From Synergistes sp. (GTDB taxonomy: Bacteria; Synergistota; Synergistia; Synergistales; Synergistaceae), in NCBI GenBank assembly GCA_017537925.1, contig JAFYJW010000040.1, positions 1-45,608 on the forward strand: a stretch of DNA of 45,608 bases. Reading direction: 5' to 3'. The number at the start of each line of letters is the position of its first letter. Position 1 is the stretch's first letter. Below are positions 10,374 through 41,440 of the stretch, one piece after another. Under the pieces are notes generated by a model. That model saw only the letters and a list, made by a program, of their open reading frames with translations. It was not told the DNA's origin and did no database searches. Made by a program: the position numbers and the translations under genes.

Positions 10374-11753
10374 TTATTTAAAGAATTTCTCCCAATATCC
10401 GGTAGCAAGTATTATCAGAACTATGACCGGCGCTATGTATGTCAGGTAGAAACGCAGCGACGCCGGCACCTTGAGTCCTGTACCCATATCCGCTTCCTTT
10501 ATGAAGTTGTCCCAGCCCCAGCCGTAGCGCATGACGCAGAAAAGCAGATAGACAAGAGCTCCTATCGGCAGCAGGTTGTTGCTGACGATAAAGTCTTCAA
10601 GGTCAAGCACCATCGAGCCTTCGCCGAAGGGCTGGAAGCCGGACCAGATGTTGAAGCCGAACGCGCACGGCAGCGCAAGTATGAATACCGATATACCCGT
10701 GAACAGCGCGGCTTTTCCGCGTTTCCAGCCGAAGTGATCCATAAAGCCGGCAAGGATGTTCTCAAAGACCGCAATTACGGTAGAAAGCGCCGCAAAGCTC
10801 ATGAACAGGAAGAAAAGCGCGCTCCAGAAGCGTCCCTGCGGCAGATGGTTGAACATGTTCGGAAGCGTTACAAAAATAAGCCCTGGGCCGGCGCCCGGGT
10901 TGATGCCGTAGGCAAAGCATGCCGGGAAGATTATGAGCCCTGCCGTGATGGCGACCGCGGTATCCAGAGCGGTCACTATGATCGACTCCCCTACCAGCGA
11001 ACGGTCGCGCCCGATGTAGCTGCCGAATATAGCCATGCTGCCTATGCCTATGCTGAGCGTGAAGAAGGCCTGCCCCATCGCCGCGTAAACGCTCGTCCAG
11101 AGACCATGTTCCACAAGGTGGCTGAAATCCGGTTTAAGATAGAACTCAAGCCCCTTGCCGGCTCCCGGCAGCGTCACTGAACGCAGCACCAGCGCGAGCA
11201 TTATCAGAAGAAGCCCGCACATCATTATCTTGGTCACACGCTCGACTCCTCCGCGCAGCCCCGAGAAGCAGACGACAGTGCCGATAAACACGGCAAGAGC
11301 CATCCAGAATACCAGCGCCTGAGGAGATGACAGCAGACCGCCGAAGACTCCGCCCACCTCGTCAGGAGTAAGCCCGGTCATGCGCCCCGCAAGGGAATAC
11401 CATGTGTAAGCCAGCATCCACCCTGTAACAACGGTATAAAACATCATAAGGATATAGTTGCCGGCCCAGGCTATATACCCCCACAGCGACCAGACGCCGT
11501 GCTGCGGGCACAAAGTCGTAAATGACCTTACCATGCTCTTCTGAGAGGCACGCCCTACCGCGAACTCCATTACCATAATCGGCATCGCAAGCAGCAGAAG
11601 GAAAATAATATACATCAATACGAATGCCGCGCCGCCGTACTGCCCCGTGATAAAGGGGAAGCGCCACACGTTGCCGAGTCCTATTGCGCAGCCTGCGGAA
11701 AGAAAGATAAATCCTATTCTGCTCCCAAGCGATTCGCGTTCATGTTCTGCCAT
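10374..11753 (-). CDS. Sodium-dependent transporter, neurotransmitter:sodium symporter (NSS/SNF) family
   Basis: A 459-residue inner-membrane protein with about 11-12 hydrophobic segments. TM1 carries the family signature GLGNVWRFPF (about residues 22-31), whose unwound middle binds Na+ and substrate in LeuT-type transporters. Bacterial members import amino acids or related amines with Na+. A perfect GGAGGT ribosome site precedes the ATG. It is a single-gene unit with its own terminator. The substrate is not readable from sequence, though an amino acid would fit the inferred lifestyle. Confidence 0.93.
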   Translation of the reverse strand: MAEHERESLGSRIGFIFLSAGCAIGLGNVWRFPFITGQYGGAAFVLMYIIFLLLLAMPIMVMEFAVGRASQKSMVRSFTTLCPQHGVWSLWGYIAWAGNYILMMFYTVVTGWMLAYTWYSLAGRMTGLTPDEVGGVFGGLLSSPQALVFWMALAVFIGTVVCFSGLRGGVERVTKIMMCGLLLIMLALVLRSVTLPGAGKGLEFYLKPDFSHLVEHGLWTSVYAAMGQAFFTLSIGIGSMAIFGSYIGRDRSLVGESIIVTALDTAVAITAGLIIFPACFAYGINPGAGPGLIFVTLPNMFNHLPQGRFWSALFFLFMSFAALSTVIAVFENILAGFMDHFGWKRGKAALFTGISVFILALPCAFGFNIWSGFQPFGEGSMVLDLEDFIVSNNLLPIGALVYLLFCVMRYGWGWDNFIKEADMGTGLKVPASLRFYLTYIAPVIVLIILATGYWEKFFK

Positions 11754-20367: not shown

Positions 20368-20445
20368 CGGGATGTAGCGCAGTCTGGCTAGCGTACCTGC
20401 ATGGGGTGCAGGTGGTCGGAGGTTCGAATCCTCTCATCCCGACCA
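20368..20445 (+). tRNA. tRNA-Pro (anticodon GGG)
   Basis: A full cloverleaf: acceptor CGGGATG (20368-20374) pairs with CATCCCG (20435-20441), the anticodon stem CCTGC/GCAGG encloses ATGGGGT giving anticodon GGG, and the T arm reads GGAGG-TTCGAAT-CCTCT. The discriminator A and an encoded CCA end it. It reads CCC (and CCU). Accessory DNA begins directly behind it, as is common at tRNA genes. Confidence 0.95.
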
Positions 20446-32040: not shown

Positions 32041-33045
32041 CTACAGAAGCTTTTCTGCTATCTGGACCGCGTTCAGCGCAGCGCCCTTTCTAAGGTTGTC
32101 GCCGACCACCCACATCGCAAGGGCGTTGTCCAGTCCGGTGTCTCTGCGTATCCTGCCGACTCTGACATCGTCTTCGCCGGCAACCTCTGTCGGAAGAGGA
32201 TAGACCGCGTTCTTCGGATCGTCCTGAACGATGACGCCGGGAGCCTTTTTAAGTATCTCTCTTGCTTCATCGGGCGTGATCGGCCTCTCGAACTGAGCGG
32301 TGACGCTTTCGCCGTGGCAGCGGAAGATCGGGACGCGGACGGTGATGCCGCTTACGCGAAGGCCTGGCAGATGCATTATCTTCCGCGATTCGTTCACCAT
32401 TTTCCACTCTTCCTCGGATATGCCTTCGTCGTCGAAAGCGCCGATGTGCGGCAGCAGGTTGAAGGCTATCGTATGCGGATATACGCTGTCTTTATACTCT
32501 TCGCCGTTAAGTGCGGCAAGAGCGCCTTCGCGCAGCGAATCAAGGGCGGCCTTGCCGGTGCCGGCCACAGACTGGTATGTGCTGATATTTATGTACTTAA
32601 GTCCGGCCGCTTTGTGCAGAGGATAGAGAACGACTACAGCCTGTATCGTCGAGCAGTTCGGGTTCGCGATTATCCCTTTGTTCTTTGCCATCGCGGTGTC
32701 TTCCGCGTTGATCTCCGGCACGATAAGGGGAACGTCTTTGTCCATGCGCCATGCGGAGCTGTTGTCGACGACAATCGCGCCGCTTGCGGCAGCTACAGGG
32801 GCCCACTGCTTCGACGTTTTGCCTCCCGCGGAAAAGAGCGCAATGTCTACGCCTTTGAATGAGTCTTCCTGTACCGCCTTAACAGTTATCTCTTCCCCGC
32901 AGAACTTTACCTTGCTTCCGGCCGAACGCGGCGAAGCAAGCGGTACAAGCTCCGAAACAGGGAACTTCCTCTGCTCAAGCGTCTTGAGCATCTCGCGCCC
33001 GACAAGACCCGTGGCGCCCAATACGGCAACTCTTTTTCCACTCAT
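32041..33045 (-). CDS. asd: Aspartate-semialdehyde dehydrogenase
   Basis: A 334-residue NADP-dependent enzyme reducing aspartyl phosphate to the semialdehyde, the branch point to lysine/diaminopimelate and threonine/methionine. It shows GATGLVGREML at 10-20, the catalytic Cys131 in NPNCSTIQ, and RCHGESV with the active-site histidine. The ATG overlaps the lysC stop by one base (TGATG). Last gene of the T-box operon. Confidence 0.97.
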   Translation of the reverse strand: MSGKRVAVLGATGLVGREMLKTLEQRKFPVSELVPLASPRSAGSKVKFCGEEITVKAVQEDSFKGVDIALFSAGGKTSKQWAPVAAASGAIVVDNSSAWRMDKDVPLIVPEINAEDTAMAKNKGIIANPNCSTIQAVVVLYPLHKAAGLKYINISTYQSVAGTGKAALDSLREGALAALNGEEYKDSVYPHTIAFNLLPHIGAFDDEGISEEEWKMVNESRKIMHLPGLRVSGITVRVPIFRCHGESVTAQFERPITPDEAREILKKAPGVIVQDDPKNAVYPLPTEVAGEDDVRVGRIRRDTGLDNALAMWVVGDNLRKGAALNAVQIAEKLL

Positions 33046-34277
33046 CAGAAGGCCACCTCATCTATAAAATGATCGTGAAGCTCTCTTACCGCGTCTTCCG
33101 CGCGCGAGCTCCCTACTATACACGTGATCGCAAGAGCCGTGGACGCTATCATCTCTATGTTTATCCCTGCTTCCGCAAGTATTGTGAACATTTTCGACGG
33201 TATCTCGGGATGGTTGGCAATGCCCGCGCCTACTATCGAAACGCGCGCTATCTCGGTGTCGAATGAAACGCCCTGTGCGTCTATCTCGCGGCATATCTTG
33301 CGGCAGACCTGGCTTGCCTCTTCAAGGTTAGTCTTTTTCACCAGGAAGCCTATATCGTTTACGCCGCCGCGCATGTTGTTCTGTATTATCATTTCGGCGC
33401 CCACGCCTTTTGCGGCAAGCTCCGCAAAGAGCCGCGCCGCGATTCCCGGTATATCCGGAACACCGAGCAGCACTACCTTGGCTACTTTCATATCCTGTAT
33501 GACGGCTTTTATTATCAGTCCTTCAGTTACGGGGTTGCTCATTACCCACGTTCCCTCCTCTTCGACAAAGCTTGAACCTACATAAAGCGGCACATTATAG
33601 CGCGCCGCGACTTCCACGCTGCGGGCCTGCAGGACTTTCGCGCCCTGAACGGCCATCTCCATGCACTCGTCAAATCCGAGCTGGCTCAGTTTCCTGGCAT
33701 TTTTAACGACGCGCGGATCGCCTGTCATTATCCCAGTGACGTCTTTTAAGAGCCGGCACGACTGAGCCCCGAGAGAAGCGGCAATAGCCACCGCGGAAAG
33801 ATCCGATCCTCCGCGCCCCAGCGTTATCACATCGCCGTTGTCCGTTATAGCCTGAAAGCCTGTAACTACAGCCACAGTGCCTTCGTTGAGGGCGCGCTCC
33901 ACGGCGTCCGGTTCTATCCTGTAAATTCGTCCCTCCATAGGGAACCCCTTGGCTTTTATTCCGGCCTGAAGCGCCGTAAAAGACTGGGCCGGTATCCCCT
34001 GCTGCTTAAGGGCAAGCGCAAGAAGAGCCACGCTCTGCTGTTCGCCGGTGGCAAGCAGCTGGTCCATTTCGCGGCCGTCTTTTTCCGCGGCGACGTCGCT
34101 TGCGAGAGCAAGGAGCTCGTCGGTCGTATTTCCCATCGCGGAAACCACGACGGCCACGCGGTACCCTTCATCGCGCGTCTTCCTGACTATCTGCGCCACA
34201 TGCTTCATCCTTTCGGAGTCGGCCACGGACGAACCGCCGAATTTAAGTACAGTAAGAGGCAGTTTTTCCCACTCCAT
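33045..34277 (-). CDS. lysC: Aspartate kinase
   Basis: A 410-residue kinase starting the aspartate family pathway. The nucleotide site KFGGSSV is at 12-18, GRGGSDLSAVAIAASLGA is the substrate-binding piece, and two C-terminal ACT domains (about 265-400) allow feedback by lysine and/or threonine. Length matches the alpha-type enzyme. GGGGGTGA precedes the ATG, right at the thrB stop. Its place in a threonine-controlled operon suggests it serves the threonine branch. Confidence 0.97.
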   Translation of the reverse strand: MEWEKLPLTVLKFGGSSVADSERMKHVAQIVRKTRDEGYRVAVVVSAMGNTTDELLALASDVAAEKDGREMDQLLATGEQQSVALLALALKQQGIPAQSFTALQAGIKAKGFPMEGRIYRIEPDAVERALNEGTVAVVTGFQAITDNGDVITLGRGGSDLSAVAIAASLGAQSCRLLKDVTGIMTGDPRVVKNARKLSQLGFDECMEMAVQGAKVLQARSVEVAARYNVPLYVGSSFVEEEGTWVMSNPVTEGLIIKAVIQDMKVAKVVLLGVPDIPGIAARLFAELAAKGVGAEMIIQNNMRGGVNDIGFLVKKTNLEEASQVCRKICREIDAQGVSFDTEIARVSIVGAGIANHPEIPSKMFTILAEAGINIEMIASTALAITCIVGSSRAEDAVRELHDHFIDEVAF

Positions 34278-35237
34278 TTATTTCACCCCCGCGCTTTTCA
34301 GTGCATCCTGCAATTCCATGCTGACATCGACGCGCGCGCCGTCCGCGCTGCCGTCAAGCACAAAGAACTGCGAACGGACACCGTATTCGGTAAATGTACG
34401 GCACATCGTCTCAGCAACACGGTGCGTGGTGCCGCGCACAAGCGCTATCACGGAAGGGCCTGAACCGCTTATAGCCACGGCAAGGCATTCCGGAAGCTCC
34501 TGAACGCGCGAGAATATCACGTCGCCGCCCGAGAAGAGCTTGCTGCGGTACTGCTGGTGCAGCTTGTCATCCATGCCCCATTTCAGGTAATCCCACTTGC
34601 CGGTCGCCCATGCGGCAGTGAGCAGTGCGGCGCGCCCGACGTTGAATACCGCATCGGAGAAAGCAACTTCCCTGGGCAGCGCATTGCGCGCGTCGGAGGT
34701 CTTTACGCGCTCGTCGGGCACTGCGGCGACGCAGAGCACTTCGGGCGGCAGCGGAGGCAGGTTCACGTAGCGCAGATCTTCACCGTTCCAGCAGCTTACG
34801 ACCATCCCTCCGAGATAACATGGCGCCACGTTATCCGGATGTCCTTCTATCATTGTCATTTCGCGAAGCAGTTCGTCATCGTCTGCTTCATAGCCGGTCA
34901 GATGCTTTGCGATAAGAACTCCCGCCACTACTGCGCCCGCGGAGCTGCCAAGTCCGCGGCAGAGAGGGATAATGTTGTGGCACCAGAGAGAGAATCCCGG
35001 CGCTTTGACATTCCAGCGTTTGCATGTCTCTTCGTAGGCTGTGATGACGAGGTTTTTATCGGGAGCAGAAAGTTCTCTCGCTCCTTCGCCGTGCGCCTCT
35101 ATTTTGTACTCTCCCTGCGGCAGTATCTCCATAACTTTGAAAATGTTATATAAAGATACGGCCATACCTATCGTGTCAAAACCGGAACCAAGATTGGCGC
35201 TGGTAGCCGGCACTCTTATCGTGATAAGCGGTTTCAC
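34278..35237 (-). CDS. thrB: Homoserine kinase
   Basis: A 319-residue GHMP-family kinase phosphorylating homoserine. The PATSANLGSGFDTIGMA start and the ATP-binding loop RGLGSSAGAVVAG (about 93-105) are family hallmarks. The start codon is GTG, overlapping the thrC stop by four bases, with GGAGGTGATG just before. Its product is the substrate of ThrC. Confidence 0.96.
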   Translation of the reverse strand: MKPLITIRVPATSANLGSGFDTIGMAVSLYNIFKVMEILPQGEYKIEAHGEGARELSAPDKNLVITAYEETCKRWNVKAPGFSLWCHNIIPLCRGLGSSAGAVVAGVLIAKHLTGYEADDDELLREMTMIEGHPDNVAPCYLGGMVVSCWNGEDLRYVNLPPLPPEVLCVAAVPDERVKTSDARNALPREVAFSDAVFNVGRAALLTAAWATGKWDYLKWGMDDKLHQQYRSKLFSGGDVIFSRVQELPECLAVAISGSGPSVIALVRGTTHRVAETMCRTFTEYGVRSQFFVLDGSADGARVDVSMELQDALKSAGVK

Positions 35238-36274
35238 CCCCGCATCACCTCCAGAAGTTCGTCCAGGCTGTCGCCTATCTCGATCGGGCGCCCCACCTGC
35301 GACATTGCTGTATCCGGATCTTTAAGGCCGTTTCCGGTAAGTATCATAGTCACCGTTATTCCGGCGGGCAGACGTCCTTCGCCCTTCAGCTTTATAAGGC
35401 CCGCAAGCGGCGCGCATGACGCCGGTTCCGCAAAAAGCCCGCCTTTTGAAGAAAGCAGCTTCTGTGCCGCTAAAATCTCTTCGTCGGTCACCGAATTGAA
35501 CTCTCCGGAAGACTGCGCGACAGCCTCTTTTGCAAGATGCGCGCTTACCGGATTTCCTATCCTTATAGCCGTTGCGACCGTTTCCGGGTTCGGGCACGGC
35601 TTGCCCGTTACGAGCGGAGCCGCTCCTGCGGCCTGGAATCCCATCATGCGCGGAAGTTTGTCGATCTTCCCAAGCTCTTTGTACTGCCTGTAGCCGGCCC
35701 AGTAAGCGCTAATGTTGCCGGCGTTTCCGACGGGGATAGCATGCCAGTCGGGCACTTTTCCAAGCGCTTCGCATATCTCCCATGCGCCGCTCCTCTGCCC
35801 CCAGAGCCTGTACGGGTTGACGGAGTTGACTATCGCAAAACCTTTGCTCTCCGCCGCGCTCCGCGCCATTTCAAGAGCCCTGTCAAAGTTGCCCTTCACC
35901 GCTATGACGGTCGCTCCGTACATCAGGGCCTGGGCAAGCTTGCCGAGCGCGACTTTTCCCGCAGGCAGCAGAACATAGCAGGGAACGCCGGCTGCTGCGG
36001 CATAAGCGGCAGCGGACGCGGATGTGTTTCCAGTCGAAGCGCATACAAGCGCTTTTGCTCCGTCTTCAAGAGCCTTTGCCACAGCCATCACCATGCCGCG
36101 GTCCTTAAAGGAACCGGACGGATTGCAGCCTTCCAGCTTCGCCCACAGCTCTATGCCGAGCATCCTGCTGATATTGTCAACATGGACAAGAGGCGTGGCG
36201 CCTTCTCCGAGCGTTATCATAGGCGTCTTTGCCGTGACAGGCAGCAGCTGTGCGTATTTTTCGAGTACTCCCAT
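35234..36274 (-). CDS. thrC: Threonine synthase
   Basis: A 346-residue PLP enzyme turning O-phosphohomoserine into threonine. The PLP lysine is Lys57 in NPSGSFKDRG. The cofactor-phosphate loop VGNAGNISAYW and the N-terminal TLGEGATPL signature are present. Length fits the short bacterial type. AAGGAGG lies before the ATG. First gene behind the T-box leader. No homoserine dehydrogenase gene is in the window. Confidence 0.97.
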   Translation of the reverse strand: MGVLEKYAQLLPVTAKTPMITLGEGATPLVHVDNISRMLGIELWAKLEGCNPSGSFKDRGMVMAVAKALEDGAKALVCASTGNTSASAAAYAAAAGVPCYVLLPAGKVALGKLAQALMYGATVIAVKGNFDRALEMARSAAESKGFAIVNSVNPYRLWGQRSGAWEICEALGKVPDWHAIPVGNAGNISAYWAGYRQYKELGKIDKLPRMMGFQAAGAAPLVTGKPCPNPETVATAIRIGNPVSAHLAKEAVAQSSGEFNSVTDEEILAAQKLLSSKGGLFAEPASCAPLAGLIKLKGEGRLPAGITVTMILTGNGLKDPDTAMSQVGRPIEIGDSLDELLEVMRG

Positions 36275-36923: not shown

Positions 36924-38183
36924 CTATATATACCACACCGGAAGCTGCAGCAGATTCTCGCGCAGCAGATCGGGCTGGGGACAAGTGCAGACGATGGCGC
37001 CCATACCGCGGCGCTTTTCCTCGACCTTATCCAGTACCGTAAAGGCTCCGGCGTCATCTGCCGTAACTGCGGGGTTTTGCTTGATCTCAACTGGATAGAG
37101 GATGCCGTTCTCTTCAATGATCAGGTCGATCTCGCTCTCGACCTCATATTCTATCCCTTCTTTGCGCACCTTTTTCTTGTCTCTGCCCCGGTAATAGGAA
37201 ACACAATACCGGTAGTCGATTCCTCGATTGGAATAGGATTTCAAAATCTCCGAAATGACAAAGGTTTCAAACATGGCTCCGCTCATTGCGCCATAGGCGA
37301 GAGCTTCCGGCGTGAGCCACCGAGTCAGGTATGCGGCAAGCCCAGTGTCCCGGAAGTAGACCTTAGGCGTCTTGATCGCTTTTTTCAGGACAGACGGTGT
37401 ATAGGGCTCCAGCAGATATACGATTCCAGACGCCTCCAGAATGGACATCCACTTTTTGACCGTCACGGCGTCTTTGCTGATTTCATCCGCAATGTTGGCA
37501 TAATTGAGCATCTGCCCCGTTCTCGCAGCGACCGATACCATAAAACGGCGAAAATCATCCAGGTCCTGTACGGCGGACAGCTTACGAACGTCCCGTTCCA
37601 GATAGGTCTTCACATAGCTTGAGAAGAACGCCGACCATTCCAGTTCCGGATTCTGTAGTTCGGGATAACTGCCGCGATGGATCACAGCCCAGATGTTTTC
37701 CGGCGCTTTCGCCGAGGAGCTCCGATTTTGGACATAATCCATGGTGGGAACAAAGGGCTCGTTGAATGAGGTTTCCTGAATCTCTCGCAGGGACAAGCCG
37801 GAAAGCTCAATGATGCTGACACGACCGGAAAGAGACTCCGATGCTTTTTTCATCAGTTCCAGGGGCTGCGATCCGGAAAGGCAGAATTGACCGCGCTCAT
37901 CACTCTCATCACACTTGATCTTGATAAAGCGGAATAAGCCCGGTGCTCGCTGTACCTCATCATAAAAGACAGGCGGCGGATTCAACATCATGAACATGTT
38001 AGGGTTTTCATTTGCCTGATCTTCAATAAACGGATCGTCGATCGGAACGTATTTTTTATCAGGAAACAGAGCCTTGAGCATGGTCGATTTTCCGGTCTGC
38101 CTTGCTCCGGTCACCAGTACGCACTTGAAAGTCCCGTTTGAGGCGTTGACCAATTCTTCGATGCTGCGTTTGATATACTTCAT
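36924..38183 (-). CDS. AAA ATPase with DUF4143 domain
   Basis: A 419-residue protein. The P-loop GARQTGKST is at 26-34 and the Walker B-like VFYDEVQRAP at about 75. Then come a SGSQ segment, a winged-helix-like part, and a C-terminal DUF4143 domain whose ESEIDLIIEENGILYPVEIKQ carries the D-ExK pattern of a PD-(D/E)XK nuclease fold. The ATG at 38183 (behind AGGTGG) is chosen over GTG 38192. The family is widespread, patchy and often found in mobile or accessory DNA, with no proven role. It sits between the mutL-type gene and the threonine operon beside a gene fragment, which suggests insertion. Confidence 0.9.
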   Translation of the reverse strand: MKYIKRSIEELVNASNGTFKCVLVTGARQTGKSTMLKALFPDKKYVPIDDPFIEDQANENPNMFMMLNPPPVFYDEVQRAPGLFRFIKIKCDESDERGQFCLSGSQPLELMKKASESLSGRVSIIELSGLSLREIQETSFNEPFVPTMDYVQNRSSSAKAPENIWAVIHRGSYPELQNPELEWSAFFSSYVKTYLERDVRKLSAVQDLDDFRRFMVSVAARTGQMLNYANIADEISKDAVTVKKWMSILEASGIVYLLEPYTPSVLKKAIKTPKVYFRDTGLAAYLTRWLTPEALAYGAMSGAMFETFVISEILKSYSNRGIDYRYCVSYYRGRDKKKVRKEGIEYEVESEIDLIIEENGILYPVEIKQNPAVTADDAGAFTVLDKVEEKRRGMGAIVCTCPQPDLLRENLLQLPVWYI

Positions 38184-38292
38184 GTGGGCCACCTGTATTC
38201 GACAATTATTGAATTCAAATCTGGATTTGTCGTTAACGTACCACTTTTTGTGTTCGACGTCAAGCTGATACGCATTTTTGAGACAGTCAACG

Positions 38293-39708
38293 TTAAAGAG
38301 CTGAGACTTCGGAATCTCCTGTCGGGCAAAGGCTCTTTTTCATCATTGCAAGCGCGGCGTCCGGTTCTCTCTCTGCCAAAAGCCCTGCTGCATACAGCAC
38401 ATAACTCTTATCAAGGAAAAGATCAGCACGGTCGGGAAGCAGGATATCTTTTTCCGCTTCCTTCCTGAGCGAAAGTTTCAAAGCGCTTTCCGGACGCCGA
38501 TTGTTTATAAGTGGCCCGCCGGTGCCTATCACGCAGCGGACTGAACGCAGGTTCTTACCCCGCTGCATGAGCTTGCATACAGATGACGCCGAATGTATGA
38601 TGCTCCCTGCGTGACGGCGTGACGCGGCGCTTACGCAGAAAGAGGCGAGCGCTTCGTCAAGAGCGTGCTCATCGCTGTTCGACGGCAGATACGAATTGTC
38701 CTCTACCCGTTTTTTTACGCCTTCGCGGACAAAAGCCTCGTCAGTGCCGGAAGCAAGAGCGACTCGGGATATGCCGCAGAGTTCCGCTGTATGGCCTGAA
38801 GACTCGCGGAGTCCGAGATCCCCTTCCACCGTCCTTTTCGCAAAGCTTTCGGCGGCTCCTGTAAGCCTCGCGCCTTCAAACGGGCTCTGCTCGGAAAAGG
38901 AATGGACGTCGGTAGTGGCGCCTCCGATGTCGAATATCACCAGGTCTCCCACGCCCTTTTCAGCCGATGTGCCGCAGGAGAGCAGCCTTCCTGCCGCAAG
39001 CACGGCAGCTGGCGTAGGCATAAGTATGCCGTCAGTCATTTCACGAACGCCCGAAAGCCCCTTCATATTTATTATCCTTCCGAGGAATATATCCCGAATC
39101 GTCTGTTCGGCCATCGCCGTGTTCAGTTCTCCTACAGCGGGGATAATATTGTCGGATAAGAAGCACTCCTTGCCTCCCGCCGCAAGGATAGAGCGCACAC
39201 GCACTGCGGCAAAGCTGTTGCCCGCATAGATCACAGGTATATTGAGCCCGCTTTCGGCAAGGACGGAAGCGTTGCGGAGAAGCGCTTTTTCGCTGCCGTT
39301 TTCATAGCCGCCGCAGAAAAGTATGATCTCGATATTCTTTGACGCAAAGCCGGCAATATCGCTTTCTTTTATCAGGCCGCACGCTGTGGCGACTATGCGC
39401 CCGCCCGAACCGTAGGCGGCGTTTCTGCCGGCTTTCAGAGAAAGGCTTTCGCTCAGGCCTATAACGCCTATCCTAAGCCCGCCGGCAGCGCTTGATGACG
39501 CAAGTTTTTCCGCACTGCCGAATTCGCTTGCGGAAAGAACGCTCTTTGCCATCTCAAAACACTCTTTAAGCGCCACGCGCGCATCTGTTTTGACGGTGGA
39601 AGCGGCGGAACCGGTAAAAAGCATCCTTCGCTCGGATAAAGACGCGACGGCTACTTTGGTGCGTGTGCTCCCGAAATCAAGCAATACCGCATATCTGTTT
39701 TTCTGCAT
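38293..39708 (-). CDS. MutL/GlmL-type reactivating ATPase for a B12-dependent mutase
   Basis: A 471-residue protein of the glutamate mutase MutL family, with an actin/Hsp70-like ATPase fold. Phosphate-1 motif LLDFGSTRTK is at 9-18 and phosphate-2 motif FDIGGATTDVHS lies mid-protein, followed by VEGDLGLR. Such proteins swap damaged cobalamin out of the mutase at the cost of ATP. The start overlaps the end of the mutase gene by 32 bases, so the two are coupled and probably work as a pair. Confidence 0.9.
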   Translation of the reverse strand: MQKNRYAVLLDFGSTRTKVAVASLSERRMLFTGSAASTVKTDARVALKECFEMAKSVLSASEFGSAEKLASSSAAGGLRIGVIGLSESLSLKAGRNAAYGSGGRIVATACGLIKESDIAGFASKNIEIILFCGGYENGSEKALLRNASVLAESGLNIPVIYAGNSFAAVRVRSILAAGGKECFLSDNIIPAVGELNTAMAEQTIRDIFLGRIINMKGLSGVREMTDGILMPTPAAVLAAGRLLSCGTSAEKGVGDLVIFDIGGATTDVHSFSEQSPFEGARLTGAAESFAKRTVEGDLGLRESSGHTAELCGISRVALASGTDEAFVREGVKKRVEDNSYLPSNSDEHALDEALASFCVSAASRRHAGSIIHSASSVCKLMQRGKNLRSVRCVIGTGGPLINNRRPESALKLSLRKEAEKDILLPDRADLFLDKSYVLYAAGLLAEREPDAALAMMKKSLCPTGDSEVSAL

Positions 39709-41440
39709 CGCAGGCTTCTTTCACAGCAGGTATTATCTTAGCCATATCATTGTCCGCGTTGACTCCGATCTCGCGGAGTTTATCGGATACGTCTGTCGCA
39801 AGAGATTCCCCGTCTATATTCTCGTTGAGCAGTCCGCCTAATATTATCAGCACGCTCACGCCGGCTTTTTCCATTTTTTCTTTCAGTTCTTTCGCGAATG
39901 ACAGCGCAATGCCGTTGTAGGTCGTCATAGCGACCGCCTTTGCTTCTGTCTCGATGATGCTTTCAACTATCTCTTCCGGGGTGACATAGTTCCCGAGGTC
40001 AAACACAGACGCTCCGGCCCTGGTAAGGATGGTTTTTACGACTTCCTTGCCGTAGTCATGTATATCGGTGGCCCCCACTATCACCTTCACTCCGGAAAGT
40101 TCGCCGCCGACGTTACCTATCTTTTCAAGAGCGTTGTCCTTCCTTCTGTCAAGGCTTTTTATCGTATCTGTAGGACGTATGCTCTTCCATTCGCTGCCGT
40201 CGCGCGACGCGCCGGCGCCGAAACAGTCCTCAAGCTGACGCGGACCGATCGCCTTCAGTGCGGCAAACATCTGGCCGGCATGGTTTATATCAACGCCGAG
40301 GTCGTCCAGGGCGTTCATCATTCTTTCGAAGAATATCCTTCCTCCCTCAACGTAAACGTCGCTTTCGGCGTCGATCTTTTTCCAGTCGATATAAGGCTCC
40401 ATAAACTTCGACTTTTCTATCATCATATCAACGGTCAGGTGCCCGTCGACTATTTCCTGCGCCGTAGGTATGCGCATCGCTTCGGTCACAGGTACCGAAG
40501 GGACGGCGTGTCCTGTGGGCATATGGCGTTCAAATATCGCGTCCGCAAGGGAGAATGAAGCAAGAGCCCCGTAATTGTGCTGGAAATCAAGGCCGTAATC
40601 CACAGTATTGCCGAATATCATAGTGCCGGGCGTGTGGTATTTGTTCATCTTCTCCATCGCGGTATGCATTATTATGCGCCCGATAGGATCGCTGTAAAGG
40701 TTGCCGTAGGCGAAAGTCATGCGGGCTCCGAGCATATCCTCGACGAGATGACGCTCCATCAGGGCCCACCCTGCCGTGCTGGTCAGATCTTTAAACTGGT
40801 TGCCGAAGCCGTCATCCAGATTGGAGTGGACTATCGTACCCTCGATCTTGCCCATTATCATGAAAGCCGTCAGCGAACTGACGGTACGTTCGTATTCAAG
40901 GTCGACCCCGGGGTATTCATAAGTGAAATAGTGGGAGACGTTGCCTATAGACGTGACGCCGGCCTCAAGCGCGAAGATCGTATTTTCAAGAGCGTTGGGC
41001 GCGCCGATCATATGGTCCGACATATGCGGCTGAACCGGGACTATCTGCCCCACAGCAGCCCACTCTTCAGGCGTATTGAGGATAAGCCCCGTTCCTTTCG
41101 GAAGCTTGCCGCGGTGCTCCGCCGGAACGCCCATGACCCAGTCAAGAATGAAGCCCATGCGGGTGATATAGCTGCCGCGGCGCTTCAGTTCGTTGTATAT
41201 GAATTCAACGTTCCGTGCGGTCTCATCCCATGTGTTCCAGCCGATGTGGGAGTGCTTGGATATTATGCCTTCGGCGGCCGCGCGGCGCTTATACTCCGCC
41301 TCGCTCTTAACCCCGTGCTCTTTAAAAAAGAGCGTCTGCCCCACTTTTATCTTCGCGGCAAGCTTTGACGCGTTTGCTTCAATATCTTCCATCGAAGGAA
41401 GGTCTTTCCATTCAAATCTCCTGTTGAGCTTAAGTTCCAA
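39677..41440 (-). CDS. Single-chain adenosylcobalamin-dependent carbon-skeleton mutase, substrate unknown
   Basis: A 587-residue protein. The start is TTG 41440, behind AGGGGATG and giving the start MELKLNRRFEW. The first 440 or so residues look like a glutamate mutase epsilon-type TIM barrel. The C-terminal 130 residues are a B12-binding domain with DxHxxG at 459-464 (His461 as lower cobalt ligand) and the later ILGGLL piece. Glutamate mutase is usually two proteins (about 480 and 137 residues). Here both parts are one chain in E-S order, as known for 2-methyleneglutarate mutase of Eubacterium barkeri. Neither methylaspartase nor nicotinate-pathway genes are nearby, so the substrate is open: glutamate, 2-methyleneglutarate or another. 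Confidence 0.85.
   Translation of the reverse strand: MELKLNRRFEWKDLPSMEDIEANASKLAAKIKVGQTLFFKEHGVKSEAEYKRRAAAEGIISKHSHIGWNTWDETARNVEFIYNELKRRGSYITRMGFILDWVMGVPAEHRGKLPKGTGLILNTPEEWAAVGQIVPVQPHMSDHMIGAPNALENTIFALEAGVTSIGNVSHYFTYEYPGVDLEYERTVSSLTAFMIMGKIEGTIVHSNLDDGFGNQFKDLTSTAGWALMERHLVEDMLGARMTFAYGNLYSDPIGRIIMHTAMEKMNKYHTPGTMIFGNTVDYGLDFQHNYGALASFSLADAIFERHMPTGHAVPSVPVTEAMRIPTAQEIVDGHLTVDMMIEKSKFMEPYIDWKKIDAESDVYVEGGRIFFERMMNALDDLGVDINHAGQMFAALKAIGPRQLEDCFGAGASRDGSEWKSIRPTDTIKSLDRRKDNALEKIGNVGGELSGVKVIVGATDIHDYGKEVVKTILTRAGASVFDLGNYVTPEEIVESIIETEAKAVAMTTYNGIALSFAKELKEKMEKAGVSVLIILGGLLNENIDGESLATDVSDKLREIGVNADNDMAKIIPAVKEACDAEKQICGIA

Follow-up and report, generated by a model that had tools for sequence, protein, structure and literature searches.

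To our knowledge, the described AdoCbl-dependent rearrangements number only about ten, and most of them opened a fermentation pathway. In the PLP-dependent B12 aminomutases, including the lysine 5,6- and ornithine 4,5-aminomutases (KamDE, OraSE), the lysine that holds PLP as a Schiff base sits in the B12 domain. The other described systems compared here are glutamate mutase (GlmES) with its partner GlmL, 2-methyleneglutarate mutase (Mgm), and the acyl-CoA mutases of the methylmalonyl-CoA (MCM) and isobutyryl-CoA type. GlmE is characterized by an arginine claw formed by R66, R100 and R149, plus E171 (PMC10947579).

The window analyzed in this work, a stretch of 45,608 nucleotides from the genome of a gut Synergistes, contains a two-gene module that likely encodes a single-chain AdoCbl-dependent isomerase with a glutamate-mutase-like fold, together with a MutL-type ATPase dedicated to it. 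Because the mutase appears to be neither a glutamate mutase nor a 2-methyleneglutarate mutase, it probably catalyses a rearrangement that nobody has yet assigned.

A conserved mutase and MutL gene pair

Both genes were found on the minus strand where the first-pass annotation had placed them. The mutase gene (39677-41440, stop codon included) encodes 587 amino acids, starting with a TTG codon at 41440 in the same place as in its orthologues and stopping at 39677-39679. The MutL/GlmL-type ATPase gene (38293-39708, 471 amino acids) has its ATG start at 39708, so that the end of the mutase gene is overlapped by 32 nt (39677-39708, minus strand), as had been claimed for this pair; the two genes are likely translationally coupled. 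In the phylogenetic tree, the unnamed family of the mutase splits into clade A, to which it belongs, clade B, and the small clade C. The 20 clade-A rows of this tree group together as a monophyletic unit (SH-aLRT 100). Chance pairing is excluded by the occurrence of orthologues with 48-97% identity in three phyla and by the location of a MutL gene next to the mutase gene, on the same strand, in 25 of 25 clade-A loci with enough flanking DNA. The two-gene unit is thus a real, conserved module, and the B12 domain, the predicted barrel and this gene pairing bear out the description of a single-chain mutase with its own MutL-type ATPase. Clade A is hosted by this and five other Synergistaceae genomes, many Clostridia, and Planctomycetaceae of the Planctomycetota.

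The partner passes the thresholds of PF13941 (425 bits, 4e-127) and TIGR01319 (326 bits), and is the only PF13941 protein in the genome. Among the NCBIfam models, it scores above the cut-off for the GlmL subfamily and below that for the GlmL equivalog NF040745 (431 bits against a cut-off of 475). In the tree of MutL proteins, those linked to clade A group into a single clade (SH-aLRT 99), which lies next to the GlmES-linked GlmLs, though separate from them, and is set apart from both the Mgm-linked and the ornithine-type MutLs; a MutL relative (NF040744) is used at four ornithine loci. The predicted role of the partner is that of a reactivase.

No cobalamin riboswitch was found in the window, and a scan for promoters found sites no more often than in shuffled sequences. 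The one Rfam match in the window is a tRNA gene at 20368-20442 on the plus strand.

Domain architecture and predicted fold of the mutase

The C-terminal part of the mutase matches the B12-binding family PF02310 (8e-13, residues 455-538), and this match and the predicted structure delineate a Rossmann domain of about residues 450-587 (39680-40093, minus strand). It includes the base-off/His-on cobalamin motif DxHxxG as D459-I-H461-D-Y-G464 (40049-40066, minus strand), in which D459 and H461 are invariant across 46 relatives. The fusion of a barrel with a B12 domain carrying DxHxxG at 459-464, reported in the first-pass annotation, therefore stands. The catalytic barrel has no matching model in Pfam or NCBIfam: the NCBIfam matches of the mutase are limited to the B12 domain, no acyl-CoA mutase barrel model from either collection is matched, and the best PDB sequence matches are also confined to the B12 domain.

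An AlphaFold2 model of the full-length protein, built with 46 family members (pLDDT 91.9, pTM 0.91), comprises eight strands, a helical linker and the Rossmann domain. The predicted structure and Foldseek searches assign about residues 1-350 (40391-41440, minus strand) to a (beta/alpha)8 barrel with predicted strands at 62-66, 94-97, 137-140, 164-166, 203-207, 241-244, about 273-277, and 312-314. The protein has the layout of AdoCbl isomerases of the glutamate-mutase-like fold, in which a (beta/alpha)8 barrel is joined to a DxHxxG-bearing Rossmann domain for B12. A Foldseek search with the full model places MCM on top, and also retrieves glutamate mutase epsilon and the ornithine 4,5-aminomutase OraE. 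Since the B12 domain drives part of this ranking, we also modelled the barrel alone (pLDDT 90.6); its top match is glutamate mutase epsilon (6h9e_B, E 5.8e-11, TM 0.64), followed by lysine 5,6-aminomutase, and then by IcmF and MCM. In contrast, profile-profile comparison by hhalign, using small alignments of three rows for GlmE and two rows for Mgm, detected no homology of the clade-A barrel to GlmE (E 0.25) or Mgm (E 0.38), whereas the control comparison of GlmE with Mgm gave E 0.002. Judged from the models, the barrel is of the B12-mutase fold class and yet a sequence orphan, as it matches B12 mutases in fold without detectable profile homology.

The predicted strand 8 is followed by the motif TEAMRIPT (residues 319-326; 40463-40486, minus strand), which holds E320 and the invariant, family-specific R323. 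Its counterparts are HEAIGIPT in GlmE, AAESVGIPT in Mgm, and DEALALPT in the MCM of the same genome; DxHxxG is likewise common to clade A, GlmE, Mgm and MCM. By motif comparison, E320 corresponds to Glu330, the ribose-binding residue in glutamate mutase. The proposed mechanism would start with base-off binding of AdoCbl, rather than methylcobalamin, with H461 as the lower ligand. Binding of the substrate in the barrel would trigger homolysis of the Co-C bond, and the resulting 5'-deoxyadenosyl radical, anchored by E320 through its ribose, would abstract a hydrogen from the substrate, allowing a 1,2-shift before the hydrogen is returned. After a loss of the radical that leaves the cobalamin inactive, MutL would use ATP to swap in fresh AdoCbl.

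Comparison with glutamate mutase and the methylaspartase question

The system that the module resembles most is GlmES with GlmL, with which it shares the closest barrel fold, a DxHxxG B12 domain, the strand-8 glutamate motif, and a partner from the nearest MutL group. The genome also encodes a methylaspartase (TIGR01502, 477 bits against an equivalog cut-off of 286) on another contig, C36, where its operon also codes for an amidohydrolase, a 4Fe-4S protein and the alpha subunit of a class I fumarase, while PF06368 (Met_asp_mut_E, GlmE) has no match in the mutase or anywhere else in the genome. Hence, the earlier statement that no methylaspartate genes are near holds for the locus, but the genome has such a gene elsewhere. 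The presence of methylaspartase without GlmE, the closeness of the barrel fold to GlmE, and an overlap of clade A with methylaspartase above chance in Synergistota would fit a strongly diverged single-chain glutamate mutase supplying 3-methylaspartate to this methylaspartase.

Several lines of evidence speak against such a role. As profile-profile alignment finds no homology, the residues were compared by motif and secondary-structure alignment. None of the strand ends that build the claw in GlmE has a conserved arginine in clade A: the claw positions read about H65, M103/G104 and H139, and E171 falls on an invariant glycine, G166. The fixed arginines of clade A are R8, R94, R110, R185, R230, R255 and R323. 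Thus, the claw arginines and E171 appear to have no counterpart in clade A. Among 188 Synergistota genomes, methylaspartase is found in 14, including four of the six clade-A carriers and ten of the 182 others (Fisher p 0.0003); within the family the overlap gives p 0.014, a value uncorrected for kinship. This association most likely reflects kinship in the family. The two genes also occur apart: clade A is found without methylaspartase in G167 and in G172, the latter a congener of the Synergistes studied here; six methylaspartase genomes lack clade A, clade B and GlmE; and outside Synergistota only one of 19 clade-A genomes has methylaspartase. Moreover, the relative G143 carries a real GlmES, methylaspartase and clade A all together. 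The C36 operon, in which the 4Fe-4S protein presumably resembles 6-hydroxynicotinate reductase, looks like a pathway for the degradation of nitrogen heterocycles; given the amidohydrolase and the Fe-S protein, its lyase may therefore serve another pathway.

Membership among the glutamate mutases was rejected on the HMM searches, hhalign, the residue comparison, the MutL tree and genome content. Of the two findings named in the first-pass annotation as arguing against a separate substrate, methylaspartase is present in the genome, and a place inside the characterized glutamate mutases with the substrate arginines kept is not what we observed. The lack of counterparts to the claw and E171, together with the relative that holds both GlmES and methylaspartase, indicates that the mutase is probably not a glutamate mutase; we regard the diverged glutamate mutase as unlikely. 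The same annotation had set the fused protein against the two-part glutamate mutase. The protein is indeed a single chain, although fusion by itself does not discriminate, since fused GlmE-GlmS proteins exist.

One of these is encoded at 1018-2979 of locus L177 in another Synergistaceae genome (G161), where the 653-residue glutamate mutase apparently has Gln in place of Glu171. The C36 methylaspartase operon (locus L222, 1085-6206, minus strand), whose fumarase-alpha protein is mesaconase-like, is common to several Synergistaceae.

Comparison with the other B12 mutases

An aminomutase of the OraSE or KamDE kind, shifting an amino group with the help of PLP, would agree with lysine 5,6-aminomutase being the second-best barrel fold, with the use of a MutL relative at ornithine loci, and with the amino-acid-like gene context described below. 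However, the B12 domain of the family has no invariant lysine, the invariant lysines being limited to K51 and K396, and clade A differs from these aminomutases in being a single short chain, which makes this activity improbable.

The acyl-CoA mutases of the methylmalonyl-CoA, isobutyryl-CoA or 2-hydroxyisobutyryl-CoA type share with clade A the two-domain fold and an EAxxxPT motif; MCM tops the matches of the whole model, and the DEALALPT motif in the MCM of this genome is similar to TEAMRIPT. Assignment to this group is nevertheless quite improbable: the barrel alone is nearer to GlmE and lysine 5,6-aminomutase than to MCM, the genome already holds a split MCM, the partner is a MutL and not a MeaB/ArgK-type G protein, and CoA genes do not adjoin clade A in most loci.

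For comparison with 2-methyleneglutarate mutase, we located Mgm in two Eubacteriaceae genomes via the nicotinate operon, whose genes were putatively identified by eye against the described gene content of such operons. The first-pass annotation had matched the architecture to Mgm, and this stands for the layout, as both place a barrel and a B12 domain in one chain of about 600 residues (587 and 613 amino acids) with their own MutL in the operon, but not for the barrel, which is not detectably related; the profiles of clade A and Mgm meet in the B12 domain only. A search of the genome for methylitaconate isomerase, also suggested there, found no match to PrpF/Mii (PF04303). Mgm, or a near relative with a branched C6 diacid as substrate, is thus very improbable and was rejected by the same set of tests as glutamate mutase, given that the barrels cannot be aligned, the MutLs fall into separate clades, the claw strands of Mgm by eye retain arginines missing from clade A, and clade A is without nicotinate or methylitaconate genes. 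Both glutamate and 2-methyleneglutarate are therefore unlikely substrates of clade A.

Genomic context and candidate substrate

Cultured members of the phylum, for example Cloacibacillus, ferment amino acids (PMC3709534). The window and the close Synergistaceae loci have no neighbouring gene that hints at the substrate of the mutase. Elsewhere, clade A is found near NSS Na+ symporters (six loci) or YkvI-like carriers (four loci), that is, in about ten loci. One of the NSS loci (L065) also has a class I aminotransferase, a glutamate dehydrogenase and a POR/VOR-type oxidoreductase alongside clade A. In Eubacterium callanderi, the clade-A gene run includes a four-subunit POR/VOR-type 2-oxoacid:ferredoxin oxidoreductase, a class I aminotransferase, a glutamate dehydrogenase, and an HpaB-family dehydratase that shows, with C100, C104, H293 and C300, the cysteine/histidine pattern of 4-hydroxybutyryl-CoA dehydratase. 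By eye, the clade-B locus of genome G187 has the oxidoreductase, the dehydratase and a DUF362 protein in common with this run, and adds a thiolase, an enoyl-CoA hydratase and a hydroxyacyl-CoA dehydrogenase. The gene content of these two loci suggests that a butyrate-type oxidation takes up the rearranged product as an amino or oxo acid. The context is mixed, as the Ruminiclostridium clade-A loci differ in carrying TRAP and octopine-dehydrogenase-like genes.

From the Na+/amino-acid symporters, the aminotransferase and the 2-oxoacid:ferredoxin oxidoreductase near clade A in other genomes, we tentatively propose as the likeliest substrate, with a probability somewhat below even, a small amino acid taken up with Na+, the product of which would be transaminated and oxidised by the 2-oxoacid:ferredoxin oxidoreductase.

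Two candidates within the window were set aside. A rearrangement of threonine or homoserine, considered in view of the downstream threonine synthesis genes (32041-36274), was dropped because an ATPase gene intervenes and relatives do not preserve this arrangement. An NSS transporter gene of the window (10374-11753) is 28 kb from the module and was not counted as evidence. The intervening AAA ATPase gene (36924-38192, minus strand) by eye resembles the AAA/DUF4143 type.

Clades A and B as branches of one family

The Synergistes genome itself contains a clade-B paralogue on contig C43 (35% identity). Clades A and B have many fixed differences, several of them near strand ends (for example W101/V102 versus R101/R102, N207 versus Tyr, N247 versus Gly, and D281 versus Ser), and they therefore probably act on different substrates, which would make clade A a functionally distinct branch of the unnamed family. 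A search of the open-access literature found no paper describing this family. In Synergistaceae, clade B is adjoined by a hydantoinase-A-like ATPase; in Desulfobacterales, Rhizobiales and others, it is accompanied by a ProC-like reductase and often by a gamma-glutamyl-cyclotransferase-like protein.

It is possible, if somewhat less than an even prospect, that clades A, B and C constitute a new AdoCbl mutase family with at least one rearrangement unlike that of any characterized B12 enzyme, served by two ASKHA-type reactivases: i) MutL for clade A, and ii) the hydantoinase-A-like protein for clade B of Synergistaceae. The family is distributed across several phyla, its partner genes are conserved, its catalytic barrel is covered by no family model, and its reaction is directly testable. 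The two pairings, clade A with MutL and clade B with the hydantoinase-A-like ATPase, also make the acquisition of reactivases by B12 mutases a testable question.

In Oscillibacter, a barrel-only paralogue lies on the other side of the MutL gene, which by analogy with the subunit pairing of MCM possibly points to a heterodimeric mutase. Barrel-only paralogues without a B12 domain are encoded at L070 (7148-8548), L111 (7199-8524) and L134 (602-1882), in genome G194 on a separate contig.

The Synergistes clade-B paralogue is split over the ends of two contigs (C43 and C31), with the hydantoinase-A-like ATPase gene upstream; C31 also carries genes that by eye are PxpB- and PxpA-like 5-oxoprolinase genes, and a CdaR-type regulator. 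Eleven further clade-B loci, mostly from marine proteobacteria, have no adjacent ATPase reactivase; their neighbours are a ProC-like reductase and an AIG2/GGACT-like protein, in many cases joined by an oligopeptide ABC transporter.
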